The notes beneath the pieces are model-generated. The model made no database searches. It was not told the origin of the DNA and saw only the letters and a list, made by a program, of their open reading frames with translations. A stretch of 64,000 bases of DNA, from the IMG/VR virus record IMGVR_UViG_3300033143_001962, positions 1 to 64,000 of that record. The stretch is one strand, 5' to 3'. Position 1 is the first letter of the stretch. The number at the start of each line of letters is the position of its first letter. Shown here piece after piece: positions 20,424-26,154 of this stretch. The position numbers were made by a program, and so were the translations under genes. The stretch comes from a virus.

Positions 20424-21263
20424 ATGAGTGAAAATCCTTTAAAGCAATATTTTAGAACAGCAGCGATACATTTAGATTTACCGTCAAAAGGTAAGTTCTA
20501 CCCAGATGACACTTTAGAAATGCCCGAGACAGGTGAAGTTGAAGTGTTTCCTATGACAGCGTTAGATGAAATAACATACAAAACACCAGACGCATTATTT
20601 AACGGTTCAGCCGTAGTTGATGTTATACAAAGCTGTATACCTGCAATTAAAAATGCATGGGAGATGCCCATTATAGATTTAACTGCGGTACTAACTGCAA
20701 TCAGAATTGCAAGTTTCGGACATCAAATTGACATCGAAACTAAATGTCCTGAGTGCGGTGAGAAGAGTGATTATGGTCTTGATTTACGCAATGTACTTGA
20801 TTCTGTTACTCCACCTGATTACTCTAAATCACTTAGTATTGGTGATCTTAAAATTATGTACAAGCCAATGTCGTACAGAGACTTAAACGAAAATAGTAAA
20901 TTACAATTCGAAGAAGCAAAGATAGAACAGTTACTTGTTACAGATGAAGCCGAAATGAGTAATGAGGAACAGTTAAAAATTATGTCTGATGCATTTAAAA
21001 AAGTATCTTTATATACATTAACTGCATTATCTAATAATATTAGTAAAATCATTACACCAGACGTGACAGTCTCCGACAACGAACACATTGTTGAATTCTT
21101 AGAAAACTGCGAACGTGATAGGTTTAAGCTTATTAAGAAAGAAGTTACTGACAGTCAGTCTGACAGTATTATAAAACCGTTACATATTAAATGCATCAAA
21201 TGTGAACATGAATACGATGAACCGTTCACTTTGGATATGTCATCTTTTTTCGCGCAAGACTAG
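20424..21263 (+). CDS. 26: Baseplate hub assembly protein gp26-like
   Basis: 279 residues. The block starting NPLKQYFR, with LPSKGKFYP, FPMTALDEI and KTPDALFNG, is the signature of the T4 gp26-type base plate protein family. Two Cys pairs, CPEC at 108-111 and CIKC near residue 256, suggest a zinc site. It contributes to hub assembly. Late promoter directly upstream; followed 5 nt later by its usual small companion gene. Confidence 0.85.
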   Translation: MSENPLKQYFRTAAIHLDLPSKGKFYPDDTLEMPETGEVEVFPMTALDEITYKTPDALFNGSAVVDVIQSCIPAIKNAWEMPIIDLTAVLTAIRIASFGHQIDIETKCPECGEKSDYGLDLRNVLDSVTPPDYSKSLSIGDLKIMYKPMSYRDLNENSKLQFEEAKIEQLLVTDEAEMSNEEQLKIMSDAFKKVSLYTLTALSNNISKIITPDVTVSDNEHIVEFLENCERDRFKLIKKEVTDSQSDSIIKPLHIKCIKCEHEYDEPFTLDMSSFFAQD

Positions 21264-21268
21264 TAATC

Positions 21269-21481
21269 TTGGATTCTGACGGTATTGAGGGGTACATCAA
21301 TCAATTGGAAGATGAAGTTAAAGACATTAAAAATTCAGCACTACAACTAACATGGGCTATGCGTGGCGGTGTGCAATATCACGACACACTTAACATGTGT
21401 TTTGACGAACGCAAAATGATAGCCGACATATCAAAAGAAAATCTAGAAGTTACTAAGAAGTCAGGGCTTCCGTTCTTTTAA
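21269..21481 (+). CDS. Conserved small gp26-companion protein
   Basis: 70 residues with a TTG start 5 nt after gp26. It begins MDSDGIEGYINQLEDEV, contains TWAMRGGVQY, and ends with E-N-L-E-V-T-K-K-S-G-L-P-F-F, an order I recognise from small proteins following gp26 in marine T4-like phages. A coupled baseplate assembly function is likely. The 3' end overlaps the convergent gene by 29 bp. Confidence 0.7.
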   Translation: MDSDGIEGYINQLEDEVKDIKNSALQLTWAMRGGVQYHDTLNMCFDERKMIADISKENLEVTKKSGLPFF

Positions 21482-21722
21482 GCAAGTCCTTACGTGTTTG
21501 CTTACCATCCTCCCAAGACACACACATAGCACCATCTAATATATTAGCTACTGCAATCTTCCTAGGAATCTGAATTACTTCATTATGTTCTACACAATAA
21601 AGTCTGTAATGATGACTTTTATCTTTGTACGTGAGCTCACGGTAGTAATGTGTGCAATTATCATTACACAAATGTTCTACTCGCTTTTCAAATCTAATGT
21701 AAAAGTCTTTGATGTTGCTCAT
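21453..21722 (-). CDS. Small putative zinc-binding protein
   Basis: 89 residues. C-x3-C (LCNDNC), then CVEH (C-x2-H) about 23 residues later, gives a possible zinc site; the rest is basic with a TRKDLLKR helix. It is the only protein gene downstream on the same strand of the structured RNA region, so it could be co-transcribed with it. Family not recognised. Confidence 0.55.
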   Translation of the reverse strand: MSNIKDFYIRFEKRVEHLCNDNCTHYYRELTYKDKSHHYRLYCVEHNEVIQIPRKIAVANILDGAMCVSWEDGKQTRKDLLKRTEALTS

Positions 21723-21740
21723 ACATGTACTTATCAGAAT

Positions 21741-22545
21741 TTAATGTCATGGCTATGAAATAATGTATTAAATGACTTAAGATCTAGCTGCGCAGATCTA
21801 TTCGTTTGTTTACTTCGTGAAACAAACTCATCTGTTTTCAGACTAATTAGTATAGATATTTTTGAAAGAGTAATTACTTAATGTATGATAGATGGAGCAC
21901 TTACTGATACTCGAACAGAGTCAGTGGCCATACTTCACCCACCCTAGGGTAAGTGAAAAAGAATTCGAACGTCCTCGTTAGTCCAAGTACATAAAATCTG
22001 ATCCCATGCGGAAATTCTAGCACAAGCCGTAAATCAAACCATGTTTCTACACGATAGGTATGTGTTACTGTTAAGTAACATGAAGGCGGTCGTCCTCAAA
22101 CCTTCTCATATCCCGACTCACACGACGGAACCCGTACACACCTCGTTGTAGTCACCAGCGTGTACTGAGTCGACGGTTGTATCTTTTTCACAGAGCCGTC
22201 ATCTTTTAGCCTAAACACTTATATCTCCCATATTGATTTATTTTCACAGTTAAACGCATTACATGGTAGGCGTATTGCATCATCGTCCTTTGGTAGGATA
22301 GTAACTGTTAATCCCGCTATTGCTCGGAACGTTTAGGTGTCCTTCTCATCATTTGGCTGAGGAAGTTTTACCGCGTGTAGTATCCGCCCCACGCAAAGGC
22401 TTTCAATAGTGTTTAGGCTAAAATCAATAAATTGCTGGTATGTATTGTGTCCCACATAACTTTTCCGTTATGCATTTCGCTGGGTGCGTATTTTGAGAAT
22501 AAGATTTTATAGAGTTTGCTCTCTTTATGTAACGTATGTGTTACA
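21741..22545 (-). ncRNA. Candidate large structured non-coding RNA (~800 nt)
   Basis: No supportable protein gene lies between 21723 and 22634. The stretch has many nested complementary segments: TTTTAGCCTAAACACT (22204-22219) pairs perfectly over 16 bp with 22408-22423; CGACTCA (22114) with TGAGTCG (22166), stacked on GTACAC (22134) / GTGTAC (22160); GTTTGTTT (21804) / AAACAAAC (21820); TGTTACT (22063) / AGTAACA (22074); ACAGTTA (22246) / TAACTGT (22302); CATAAC (22455) / GTTATG (22467); GCGTG (22373) / CACGC (22390); TGTAAC (22528) / GTTACA (22540). A minus-strand promoter at 22545-22572 supports minus orientation. Size, phage location and multi-helix design recall the GOLLD/ROOL class, but I could not match a named family. 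tmRNA and intron were considered and rejected. Confidence 0.65.
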
Positions 22546-22572
22546 TTATAGCATCTTCTGTACAAAATGCAA
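22545..22572 (-). promoter_or_regulatory. Sigma70-type promoter for the structured RNA
   Basis: TTGCAT (22572-22567), 16 nt, TATAAT (22550-22545). A perfect -10 and moderate -35, placed exactly at the right end of the hairpin-rich region; the first hairpin (22528-22545) begins at about the predicted start. Confidence 0.6.
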
Positions 22573-22621
22573 CTAATAAGTTACATTTAATGATATTTAT
22601 ATTATCAATTGTCTGTACAAA

Positions 22622-22629
22622 AATAAATA
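22622..22629 (+). promoter_or_regulatory. Late promoter box (AATAAATA) for endonuclease VII
   Basis: AATAAATA ends 6 nt before the ATG at 22635. Initiation 6-8 nt downstream would give a leaderless message; no Shine-Dalgarno is present. Confidence 0.45.
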
Positions 22630-22634
22630 CTAAC

Positions 22635-23165
22635 ATGGCATATATAGAGCTTAAAACAAAGGACATTAAAATCCTAAAAGAAAAACTCCACAAGCAAAAT
22701 GAAGGCATCTGCCCTTTGCTTGGTGTCCAAGTGCCACCTGAACAAATGGCATTAGATCATATACATAAGCTTAAGTCCGAAGACTACGCTGATGATAAAG
22801 GAACTATACGCAATGCTATAGAGTTCCGAGCTAATGCACTAGAAGGTAAAATAACAAATAATTGGAAACGTTATTACGGTGCTGATACTTCTAAGCACTT
22901 AACAGATCTTCCAACTTTCTTACGCAACCTTGCTGACTACTTAGAAGCTGGAGCTTACACAGAAGACGGAGATTTTTATATCCATCCTAGTGAAGTACCT
23001 AAACTTCCAAAAGTCAAAAAATCATCTTATAATAAAATGATTAAACTCTTCAAGATAAAATATCCCAAAAAGAAAGTACCACCTTATCCAAAATCTAAAA
23101 AATTAACTAAACTTATGGACAAGCTGTTTACTGAATTTGATATAACTGATTTTTATTACAGTTAA
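22635..23165 (+). CDS. 49: Recombination endonuclease VII-like (gp49), zinc-site-less
   Basis: 176 residues from ATG at 22635; earlier in-frame starts lack support. ICPLLGVQV followed by MALDHIHK (Asp41, His42, His44), a GTIRNA turn and ANALEGKITNNWKR match the Holliday-junction resolvase endonuclease VII core, with the catalytic D-H-x-H and Asn. The four zinc cysteines of T4 gp49 are reduced to a single Cys26. The C-terminal half (DLPTFLRNLADYL; Lys-rich tail) fits the rest of the family. Role: trimming branched DNA before packaging. Confidence 0.8.
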   Translation: MAYIELKTKDIKILKEKLHKQNEGICPLLGVQVPPEQMALDHIHKLKSEDYADDKGTIRNAIEFRANALEGKITNNWKRYYGADTSKHLTDLPTFLRNLADYLEAGAYTEDGDFYIHPSEVPKLPKVKKSSYNKMIKLFKIKYPKKKVPPYPKSKKLTKLMDKLFTEFDITDFYYS

Positions 23166-24146
23166 TCACCACTCGGTGATATGATTGATGTCACCGAGTT
23201 TTTCTTGTGTACATTTGTTCTTGCACTCCGACGATGTAAATAGTAATTCTTCGTACCAACTATCTAATTCTGTAATTGGTGTATTGTACAAATTTAACGC
23301 ATTACTTGTCCATGCATCGTTGTGTTCGTATCTATTAGCAACCCAGCAACACGGATAAAGCTCACCTCGGCTATTTAAAAATACACCCTTGTTACCAATA
23401 GAACATAAGCCGCTATTTGATGTTAATGCCGCAGCACGTTCTTTAAAGATTACTTTCAAGTCAGCGCCAGGTCTGACTTTATTAGTAATATAAGCTAACT
23501 CTCTTTCGTACCGTTTACTACTTGATAGTAAATTAGGATCAGTGGGTTTTAATTTATCGTCTTTTATCCACTTAGTACTTTTTGTTAGCTGGAATAAATC
23601 AAATTTATATTCTATAGCTAGATTTAATAAATCTTGTATGTTGTCTTGATTAAACTTAAAACCTATTGAGGCCCATACTTTATAAGTTGAGTTATTAACA
23701 CTAGTGAACGCATCAATCCCATCCATGATACCCGCCCAATCTGAATTAATGCGATACATCTTGTTTGAGGCATGATCGAATCCGTCAATACTCCAATGCA
23801 TTTCATCATTTTCATTAAGCACCTCACCAAGTGCTGTCCACCAATTCAGTGGTCTGTAGCTTCCGTTTGTTATAATAACAAACATAATGTCTGGGTTACA
23901 CGCCTTAAACCATTCAATGATTTGAATTAATTCAGTGGCATATATTGGATCACCGTCGTTACCGCATAACGTTATCTTCTTAATATTTTTAGCAACATTT
24001 GCACCTACCGTATCTTTAAAGAAATCTAGTGTTAGCTGCTTATTAAGCAACGACTCAGGCACCTCGGCCCTAGGACATCGCGGACACTGCAACGGACAAC
24101 GACTGCTTAGTTCTATATGCCAGTGGTCTAATGCTATACTAGTCAT
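23166..24146 (-). CDS. Radical SAM enzyme with SPASM-like C-terminus
   Basis: 326 residues from ATG at 24146, which overlaps the gp46 stop; an upstream start at 24173 is possible. CPLQCPRC (Cys17, 21, 24) is the C-x3-C-x2-C motif binding the 4Fe-4S cluster, and a glycine-rich TLCGNDGDP follows. The C-terminal GLCSIGNKG, ELYPCCW and SECKNKC cysteines form an auxiliary (SPASM/twitch) cluster site. Members modify peptides or nucleotides; the substrate is not evident. A second radical SAM enzyme lies at the right edge of the window. Confidence 0.85.
   Translation of the reverse strand: MTSIALDHWHIELSSRCPLQCPRCPRAEVPESLLNKQLTLDFFKDTVGANVAKNIKKITLCGNDGDPIYATELIQIIEWFKACNPDIMFVIITNGSYRPLNWWTALGEVLNENDEMHWSIDGFDHASNKMYRINSDWAGIMDGIDAFTSVNNSTYKVWASIGFKFNQDNIQDLLNLAIEYKFDLFQLTKSTKWIKDDKLKPTDPNLLSSSKRYERELAYITNKVRPGADLKVIFKERAAALTSNSGLCSIGNKGVFLNSRGELYPCCWVANRYEHNDAWTSNALNLYNTPITELDSWYEELLFTSSECKNKCTQEKLGDINHITEW
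23172..23203 (+). terminator. Terminator of endonuclease VII, inside the convergent gene
   Basis: CTCGGTGA (23172-23179) pairs with TCACCGAG (23191-23198) and is followed by TTTTTC. It terminates the plus-strand gene while encoding the last residues of the convergent radical SAM gene. Confidence 0.8.
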
Positions 24147-26154
24147 CGACGCCTTCGTATGATGTAAAGCCACCCTCTTTAATTACTTTAATTGTATTAT
24201 GCACACGACTTATTAGTTCGTCTTTGTGTGATACAAGCCATACAGACTTGTTACGCTCACGCGCCATACTCTTAAGTATTTTAATAGACGAATCAACGCC
24301 GTTAGCATCTAATCCATTGTCTAGTAGTTCGTCTACAAACAATAGGTTTATATGACTATATAGCGATTCCCATACATCTCTAAACGCCCAACTTAATGAT
24401 AATATTAAACGTGTACGCTCGCCACGACTTAAGTTATCAAAGTCTAACTCGCGGCCCATGTCGCTAATCTCTACAGTTAAGTCACTCATGAACCTAACTT
24501 GATGCGGTAATCCAATTTCGTCTAAGTAGTGTGTTAATCTATTGTTTAAGTAAGCTAAGTTCTGCTCTATAATCTTCTTACGTATAAAGCTATCCTTGCT
24601 TGTTAATAATTTAAGTAAGAATGCTTGATGTTCCTGCATTTCAGTTAATCGATTCATTTCATCGTAACTAACATCTTGTATACCACTGTCTTGCATAGTT
24701 TCAATCTGTGCAGTATATGGATCTGTTTCAAGTGCTGATACTTCTAACTGTGCTATTAATGTATTAAGTGAACTCTTGTGTTCGTGTGCTTCGTCAATAT
24801 CTTTATAAAAAGTTTTGAGTACTACAGGCTCTATGCGTGGCACTTCATCTTCAAATGGAACAGTAGGATCATCTTGTTTACTTACTGCCATCCCTTTAAC
24901 TTCAGGCGGCGATCCTAGCTCTGCAAGTTTTAATTTGTATTCATCTTCTTTAGTAGTGTTATCTGCTAACTGAGTACTGTAGTCAGTCATCTCAGTTTGC
25001 TTTGCAGTTATGTTTTCTTCTTGCTTTTCATCGTGTAGCTCTTGCCCGCATGAATGACACTTGTGGTCTACGAGTAAATCAATATCTTTTTGTAAGCCTT
25101 GCATTCTGCGTTCGCATTTTGTATTATCTGTTTCTAATTGCGTGATCCATTTGTTACAATCGAGTACTGCGGTATTGTATTCTGTTACTACTGCATCCTT
25201 AGATGCTTCTTCTGCGTCTATTACAGCATTGAACTTAGTTACTTTTTCTTTTTCAACGTGATATGCAGCCATAGCTACTTTGTGTGCTTCTTTGCTTGCG
25301 TCAGAGAGTGCGTACCACTCAGTCTTTGCATCTTCTCTTGCTTGCGTGTTGTCTTTGTGATTGCTAATTTCTTTTTCAATGTTTATGTCCATTAACTTAT
25401 TAATGGCCGTGCCAAGATTGGTGTCTTTTGTGTGTTTGTCAGTTTGCCACATTGTTTGTCTGTCTTGAAGATTCTCAATTTGCTCTTCAATGTGTAAATT
25501 AGACTTTAATATAGCACTTAGTAAGAACTCTTCTTCTTTTAAACCATCCTTTGTACTCTTGTTTGCAACTTTAAGTGCCTCTGCCTTCTCAGACAGTACA
25601 GTAATACCAAGTAGTTGTTCTATAATGTTCTTTTGATCGTTGTTACGCATTGATAAGAACGGTTCAGTGTACGTATTAAGTGCTACACTGTGCTTAAACA
25701 TATCGTGACTAAGATTTAGTAACTCTTCAATCTCTCGTTGCGTTTCTCTGTTCTCACCTTGTGCTTCATCACCTTCTGTATCTTCACCATTCTTATAAAA
25801 TTTTAATAAGTTTGGCTTACGACCGCGCTCGATTCTGTACTCAACATCATCAATGTCAAAGTCCACAGAAACAAGCATGTTCTTTTCATTTGTTTTGTTT
25901 ATTAGATTGTTAACACGAATCTTAGTAAGTGCATCACCGTAAAATGCATAACTTAATGCATTAATTAACGTAGTCTTACCAGTACCATTCTTACTGCCAT
26001 TAGCACCTAAGTCTAAGTTTTCACCTAGTACAAGTGTTAAGTCTTGTCTATCGAAATTTACTGCTTGTGTTGCATTACCAACACTCATAAAGTTTTTTAC
26101 TGTTAAATTCTTAATACGAATCAATCGAAATTCCTCATTAAATTTTCCTTCCAT
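24139..26154 (-). CDS. 46: Recombination endonuclease subunit gp46 (Rad50/SbcC-like)
   Basis: 671 residues from ATG at 26154; a TTG near 26124 with GAGGA upstream, overlapping the HNH stop, would give the more usual N-terminus IRIKNLTVKNFMS. Walker A ANGSKNGTGKT (51-61), a zinc-hook CHSCG in the middle of a long coiled coil, then NLSRGERTRLILSLSWAF (ABC signature) and LLFVDELLDNGLD (Walker B). With gp47 it resects DNA ends for recombination-dependent replication. It is separated from gp47 by an HNH gene insertion. Confidence 0.95.
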   Translation of the reverse strand: MEGKFNEEFRLIRIKNLTVKNFMSVGNATQAVNFDRQDLTLVLGENLDLGANGSKNGTGKTTLINALSYAFYGDALTKIRVNNLINKTNEKNMLVSVDFDIDDVEYRIERGRKPNLLKFYKNGEDTEGDEAQGENRETQREIEELLNLSHDMFKHSVALNTYTEPFLSMRNNDQKNIIEQLLGITVLSEKAEALKVANKSTKDGLKEEEFLLSAILKSNLHIEEQIENLQDRQTMWQTDKHTKDTNLGTAINKLMDINIEKEISNHKDNTQAREDAKTEWYALSDASKEAHKVAMAAYHVEKEKVTKFNAVIDAEEASKDAVVTEYNTAVLDCNKWITQLETDNTKCERRMQGLQKDIDLLVDHKCHSCGQELHDEKQEENITAKQTEMTDYSTQLADNTTKEDEYKLKLAELGSPPEVKGMAVSKQDDPTVPFEDEVPRIEPVVLKTFYKDIDEAHEHKSSLNTLIAQLEVSALETDPYTAQIETMQDSGIQDVSYDEMNRLTEMQEHQAFLLKLLTSKDSFIRKKIIEQNLAYLNNRLTHYLDEIGLPHQVRFMSDLTVEISDMGRELDFDNLSRGERTRLILSLSWAFRDVWESLYSHINLLFVDELLDNGLDANGVDSSIKILKSMARERNKSVWLVSHKDELISRVHNTIKVIKEGGFTSYEGVDD

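Follow-up and report, generated by a model that had tools for sequence, protein, structure and literature searches.

What does a T4-like phage keep in a stretch of its genome where no protein gene can be found? The question is raised by positions 21741-22545 of the window that we analyzed, a 64-kb stretch of a 249,797-base virus record from a T4-like phage, for which an initial annotation had proposed a large structured RNA without giving a strand. That the region is free of protein genes was borne out, as the list of open reading frames (minimum 40 aa) has none longer than 40 aa wholly inside it. The gap is bounded by a gp26 gene and an endonuclease VII gene, with no convincing protein gene between the two, and its GC content (0.43-0.475 at 21900-22499) is higher than that of the flanks. 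The perfect 16-bp long-range complement that had been described, with 188 nt enclosed, proved exact; in 300 dinucleotide-preserving shuffles of the 841-nt region, the longest perfect inverted repeat was 7-12 bp. The numerous local helices also reported are present in the folds. Single-sequence folding is by itself mildly unusual, with a fold-energy z of -2.26 on the minus strand (0 of 20 shuffles equally good) and of -1.16 on the plus strand (2 of 20), and energy alone could not decide the question. The comparative evidence presented below supports a large RNA, encoded by a single-copy gene on the minus strand, whose features are collected in Table 1.

Across the 64-kb window, no Rfam model matched at its gathering score, GOLLD, ROOL, OLE and HEARO included, and none of these four is among the seven matches returned by a relaxed Rfam scan (E ≤ 10) of 21300-22800. 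ARAGORN and Rfam gave no match to a tmRNA, a group I or II intron or a tRNA (ARAGORN, 0 tRNA in the window), which leaves standing the proposal that the gap holds something other than a common intron or tmRNA.

Table 1. Features of the predicted RNA gene and of its neighbors (window coordinates)
Feature	Position	Strand	Basis or remark
Noncoding RNA, predicted extent	21780..22588	-	Promoter-like motifs and conserved 3' hairpins; length ~760-810 nt
RNA 5' end, predicted	22588 if late promoter used, ~22538 if sigma-70-like site used	-	RNA 3' end would be the terminal hairpin
T4-late-type promoter motif TATAAATA	22594..22601	-	Points into RNA
Weak sigma-70-like site TTGCAT-16-TATAAT	22545..22572	-	By eye; absent from consensus scan list
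5' hairpin TGTAACACATACGTTACA	22528..22545	-	Sequence, fold
P1, 16-bp long-range stem closing domain 1	22204..22423 (arms 22408-22423, 22204-22219)	-	L020: compensatory A-U to U-A and U-G wobble
Pseudoknot crossing P1	22231..22429: 22421-22429 (UAUUGAUUU) with 22231-22239 (AAAUCAAUA)	-	8-9 bp in 5/5 sequences examined; letters changed in L020
Domain 1 core, divergent Polynucleobacter-1	22252..22399	-	RF01718 21.3 bits, full model length; covariation in 9 sequences
Domain 1 core elements	hairpins 22373-22394, 22342-22365, 22312-22329, 22253-22281; helix 22302-22308/22246-22252	-	
P2 hairpin of universal domain 2, GACGG-cucugugaaaaagauacaa-CCGUC	22172..22200	-	R3 match and covariation
P3 region	22115..22171: outer helix 22166-22171/22115-22120, inner hairpin 22134-22165	-	Sequence
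P4-loop pseudoknot	22090..22125: 22122-22125 (UCGU) with 22090-22093 (ACGA)	-	Family columns 183-186/215-218 covary
P4 hairpin GAGAAGG...CCGCCUUC	22082..22107	-	99.5% paired over 43 sequences; covariation
P5 hairpin GUUACUUAACAGUAAC	22064..22079	-	Sequence
Domain 3 hairpin UUCACUUACCCUAGGGUGGGUGAA	21934..21957	-	Family columns 291-299/304-312
Hairpin ACUGACUC...GAGUAUCAGU	21903..21925	-	Sequence
Penultimate 3' hairpin	21804..21827	-	Family columns 363-372/377-386
3'-terminal hairpin AGAUCU...AGAUCU	21780..21799	-	Family columns 387-394/398-405; covariation above tree null
Endonuclease VII gene (Holliday-junction resolvase slot), divergent from RNA	22635..23165	+	phrog_423 1.3e-20; Endonuclease_7 2.6e-4, just under cut-off
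gp26 baseplate hub gene, strand opposite RNA	20424..21263	+	T4_baseplate 1.1e-16; phrog_150
gp46-like recombination endonuclease subunit	24139..26154	-	phrog_77 1.2e-97

The Predicted 5' Domain Is a Divergent Polynucleobacter-1

The best of the seven relaxed matches is to Polynucleobacter-1 (RF01718), on the minus strand and over the full model (positions 1-141). Its score of 21.3 bits (E 0.028 for 901 bases) does not reach the gathering score of 37 bits and some pairs are non-standard, and the helices covary in homologs; a scan of the window's own record with RF01718 gave nothing at E ≤ 0.001. The hairpin order of domain 1 is identical to that of Polynucleobacter-1, with which it shares conserved letters. 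The conserved-letter pattern of Polynucleobacter-1 led to two contigs, L001 and L002, that are RF01718 members over the cut-off (88.1 and 86.7 bits), share the genomic slot and the gene order of the window, and continue from the RF01718 part into the same domain 2 as the window.

We built covariance models for domain 1 (R1 and R2) and for domain 2 (R3). R1, seeded with five close relatives (the window, L004, L005, L019 and L020), matched L024 (1.8e-12), L023 (2.5e-10), L071 (5.2e-4), L083 (0.0018), L001 (0.0045) and L002 (0.02), and all six reach the RF01718 gathering score. R2, whose seed adds L023, L024, L071 and L083 and excludes L001 and L002, found 12 loci at E ≤ 4.5e-7 among 92 sources, including L001 (3.7e-7) and L002 (4.5e-7), with the next match at 0.043; among these 12, L085 duplicates the seed locus L083, and L063 and L065 are near-identical. 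Window-type domain 1 and RF01718 thus find each other in reciprocal model searches with R1 and R2, and on this comparison the 5' domain is a divergent Polynucleobacter-1. The earlier statement that no named family is matched accordingly fails for this domain and holds for GOLLD and ROOL as judged by the Rfam models. An alignment of domain 1 made with MAFFT (A6) was dropped, several of its helices being mispaired.

The likeness has its bounds, since RF01718 has 141 positions and the window RNA is about five times longer and scores below the cut-off, and most of the RNAs selected by a P2 motif (see below) leave too little space for domain 1. The spacing between nuclease gene and P2, estimated from midpoint distances, is ~100 nt in most of them. 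The Polynucleobacter-1 domain would therefore be accessory, because most motif-selected members have too little room upstream of P2. Marginal matches were obtained in L008 (RF01718 E 0.0019 in its record, R2 E 0.0075). Two endonuclease VII-type relatives (L008:4159-5000 and L010:4020-5000) have a gap of 840-980 nt with marginal or no model matches, and these gaps perhaps hold diverged RNA copies.

The Predicted RNA Occurs at a Constant Place in Uncultured Phages

Relatives of the endonuclease VII gave 16 loci, with a close RNA copy in L003, L004 and L005, and 80 more were taken from the 589 loci found with gp26. R3 was seeded with alignment A8, made of six other sequences and 37 of 57 representatives; of those excluded, five had long insertions and the remainder were dropped for size. 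The model matches the window at 22081-22211 with an E of 4.5e-19, the window being itself in the seed. A match was found in 57 of 76 gp26-selected loci, each time on the strand opposite gp26; this count omits the duplicate loci L026, L028, L085 and L088, includes eight loci of the R3 seed, and has near-identical pairs among the matches (L025/L027, L035/L036, L038/L040 and L063/L065). Of the 19 misses, 14 are loci whose DNA, by its length, extends less than 3.3 kb past gp26; in the other five (L057, L060, L062, L067 and L082), the downstream DNA is 3.3 kb or longer.

Searching with a gene-independent pattern, the P2 string GGCTNTGTGAAANAGATACAACC, we obtained matches in at least 119 viral contigs and in none of 84,980 genomes of bacteria and archaea; the pattern scans of prokaryote genome contigs gave 0 and 0, and so no copy in bacteria. 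By tblastn, the gene neighborhood of 80 of the at least 119 motif loci was counted. Where detected, gp26 is on the opposite strand and downstream of the RNA (52/52), gp46 is upstream (58/58), the portal gene has one relative orientation (36/36), and GIY-YIG (52/52) and RusA (16/16) nuclease genes are upstream on the strand of the RNA. These last two occupy elsewhere the slot filled by a divergent endonuclease VII gene in the window, L004 and L005, and in L002 the nuclease position holds a GIY-YIG gene, so that unrelated nucleases have apparently been exchanged at one place between phages. On the other side, we took the longest ORF with a start no more than 250 nt past the RNA; among 86 loci, it is convergent in 53, on the same strand in 22 and absent in 11. 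From these comparisons we conclude that the predicted RNA is wide-ranging in uncultured phage contigs, at a fixed genomic place.

Several observations concern the neighboring genes themselves. The nucleases of the gp26-gp46 slot lie at 22635-23165 in the window, at L002:11228-11656 and at L106:8039-8536. A radical SAM protein gene (23166-24173) adjoins gp46 in the window; of 80 motif loci, 16 have such a gene close to the RNA, in each case upstream and on the RNA's strand. In many phage records (H61-H95), the GIY-YIG relatives are labelled "NAD synthetase," which is likely a spread annotation error; a note in the phiM12 record names a GIY-YIG SegABCDEFG domain.

The central and 3' domains have no Rfam model match in the loci scanned, and the RNAs of the window, L001, L024 and L025 have no nucleotide match among 50,697 phage records. 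Five cultured jumbo phages with the same gene neighborhood (L105-L109) gave no significant match with R1, R2, R3 or Rfam; with R3 and filters off, the best slot scores were E 0.17 in GAP32 and E 1.2 in PA5oct, the rest being noise. Cultured phages with GIY-YIG relatives had no R3 match. Long unannotated gaps are present in the same gene slot of Phosso (L105:7233-8246), PA5oct (L106:6526-7188) and GAP32 (L109:6044-6847) and may hold diverged versions of the RNA. In PA5oct, a TTGACA...TATAAT-like string was read by eye near the start of the gap; a P2-like string, also seen by eye, is not claimed as homologous, the model search having given no significant match. In the literature searched, outside which most subscription journals and preprints lie, we found a single paper that names Polynucleobacter-1 and no description of the larger RNA.

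Covariation Supports the Fold and Fixes the Strand

In a model-fitted alignment of nine sequences, the covariation score of domain 1 is 0.552, compared with 0.215 for shuffled alignments (0/500) and at most 0.119 for slid partners; 28 of 42 pairs are changed on both sides and 96.1% of cells are paired. For domain 2, a plain MAFFT alignment of 43 sequences gives 0.320 vs. 0.119 (0/500), with slides of at most 0.128. P2 has two pairs that show all four Watson-Crick types and are paired in 43/43 sequences; the search pattern dictates its two inner pairs, and the free evidence comes from the outer pairs only. P4 is almost always paired in this family alignment (Table 1), and the outer helix of P3 is weaker (68%).

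A larger set was composed of 79 representatives of the 88 RNAs with full flanks, which came from the 101 distinct among 129 motif loci, and its 146,070 column pairs were compared with 12 simulations on a FastTree tree. The top covarying pairs fall in P2, in P4 and the helix around it, in the P4-loop pseudoknot, and in the terminal and penultimate hairpins. In the pseudoknot, columns 186/215 and 184/217 are above every simulated score, with 183/218 and 185/216 at E 0.17; the best pair of the domain 3 hairpin reaches E 0.08. Pairs 37-40/270-273 proposed by RNAalifold are not claimed, as they vary little. Over the listed helices, G-U occurs in 340 and A-C in 62 of 3,671 cells, which fixes the strand of the RNA and speaks against a cruciform in the DNA; at one pair of P4, 70 of 79 sequences have G-U. 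Homologs thus show strong covariation, the absence of which would have spoken against the initial proposal, and we conclude from the comparison that the predicted fold is that of an RNA read from the minus strand.

A Twin Motif and an Alternative Pairing

Two 5-nt motifs of the 3' domain (family columns 273-277 and 329-333) are identical to each other within 65 of 79 RNAs, and their letters vary between RNAs (AGAUG, GGAUG, ACAUG, AGAUA, GGAUA and others); the column pair 277/333 is above every simulated score. The row with the window's letters, GGACU and GUUCG, is one of the 14 in which the 5-mers differ. The identity could reflect an unseen pairing instead of an outside partner. A third, looser GAUGA-type copy precedes the twin motifs (family columns 255-261, 272-279 and 328-335).

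The same alignment has columns with the same base (191/308 and 192/309) and complementary columns (191/295 and 192/294), of which only 191/308 is above all simulated scores. Together, these relations mean that, in the domain 3 hairpin, the linker preceding P4 can take the place of the 3' strand and pair with the 5' strand. Both the linker pairing and the hairpin pairing are complete in 47 of 72 sequences, a count that excludes seven of the 79 rows, which have gaps.

Promoter Motifs

A promoter at the right end was the weakest part of the initial annotation. The sigma-70 scan gave four sites vs. 3.8 expected, no excess, and does not list the sigma-70-like site of Table 1. By its position, the well-placed TATAAATA, which we take to be the T4 late promoter consensus, is a more convincing candidate. 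Exact copies show no overall enrichment in the window (four vs. 5.4 expected); one lies 22 nt ahead of the portal gene, one 28 nt ahead of gp26, one on the 5' side of the RNA and one elsewhere. All five close relatives whose 5' flank is complete, a set that is not independent, have the motif, and in L004, L005, L019 and L020 it has the same orientation and lies 93-205 nt upstream of the core. None was seen in L008, L023 or L024, and only 2 of 81 motif-selected loci have one within 2.5 kb upstream, which is why late transcription is proposed for the window's lineage and not for most of the family. On these motifs, late expression of the RNA in this phage is somewhat probable. No intrinsic terminator was found.

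Discussion

We regard it as nearly certain that this locus encodes a structured RNA on the minus strand. Our reading as a whole, which we hold to be probable, is a single-copy, stand-alone gene for a trans-acting noncoding RNA of T4-like phages. The molecule would have three domains: at the 5' end, an accessory one with a divergent Polynucleobacter-1 fold, which the 16-bp stem closes and a pseudoknot crosses; in the center, a universal one made of P2, P3 and P4 with its loop pseudoknot; and at the 3' end, one whose last elements are two tandem hairpins. In the window's lineage, it would be transcribed late in infection from the TATAAATA promoter. It could then act in trans as a folded scaffold that binds one partner twice, since the twin motifs vary between phages yet match within most RNAs, as expected of two sites for one partner; such a two-site scaffold or assembly role is plausible, with the chances somewhat against it.

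That the RNA is independent and acts in trans, rather than as a leader or 3' UTR, is likely, because the RNA is retained where the resolvase gene differs in family and orientation and because the next ORF is mostly convergent. Weinberg et al. 2010 (PMC2864571) rated Polynucleobacter-1 as probably cis-regulatory (Table 1 of that paper: y for RNA, y for cis-reg, ? for switch), and a leader, riboswitch or 3' UTR controlling the adjacent nuclease gene or the next gene would suit the GIY-YIG and RusA genes found upstream on the same strand, the minority of loci in which a same-strand ORF follows, and the window's own 89-aa minus-strand ORF (limit 21722), which starts 58 nt past the terminal hairpin. 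However, the nuclease is divergent in the endonuclease VII lineage, the following ORF is convergent in most loci, and a multidomain RNA of 700-800 nt would make a large leader, so that we consider cis-regulation improbable. That the RNA serves the adjacent nuclease as a guide-like RNA or cofactor, as its position beside one of three nuclease families in most loci examined might suggest, is very unlikely: the RNA persists while the nuclease switches between families that are unrelated, we noticed no variable guide segment, and annotated cultured phages with related GIY-YIG genes (L229, L231-L234) have no comparable gap alongside. Recombination genes (gp46 and the resolvases) also adjoin, as might be expected if the symmetry were that of a cruciform, an origin, or a site for packaging or for a resolvase, and merely resembled RNA structure, but G-U is kept far more than A-C, the P4 pair that is mostly G-U would be a mismatch on the other strand, and pseudoknots and compensatory changes fit a single-stranded RNA; we give such a DNA-level element hardly any credence.

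GOLLD and ROOL RNAs often neighbor a tRNA island and form symmetric homo-oligomers. The proposed resemblance to this class stands as a likeness of kind and not of family, the window RNA having no Rfam match to either and no tRNA island. As described in PMC12286853, GOLLD is likewise large and phage-encoded, with a conserved 3' and a variable 5' part, and ROOL is likewise a large phage RNA with pseudoknots. Size, phage context, pseudoknots and the conserved and variable parts would all suit an RNA-only homo-oligomer, perhaps a cage, as would an alternative pairing complete on both sides in most sequences, which a domain swap would need; but this pairing could also represent a switch or an intermediate of folding, and we hold the homo-oligomer to be unlikely. 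Slightly less doubtful, yet still speculative, is a new RNA class that late in infection would assemble into a symmetric particle, of RNA only or of RNA and protein, in which the linker of one molecule would invade the domain 3 hairpin of another and the twin motifs would be identical docking sites, their letters co-evolving with one partner.

To our knowledge, large phage RNAs without a known function are few. Under our preferred reading of a trans-acting RNA, an orphan Rfam motif of 2010, Polynucleobacter-1, would become one optional domain of a large phage RNA whose genomic address is constant across many T4-like phages, all uncultured. As the secondary structure is firm and a pseudoknot, a twin motif and an alternative pairing have been located, structural work and searches for its partner can be designed at once.
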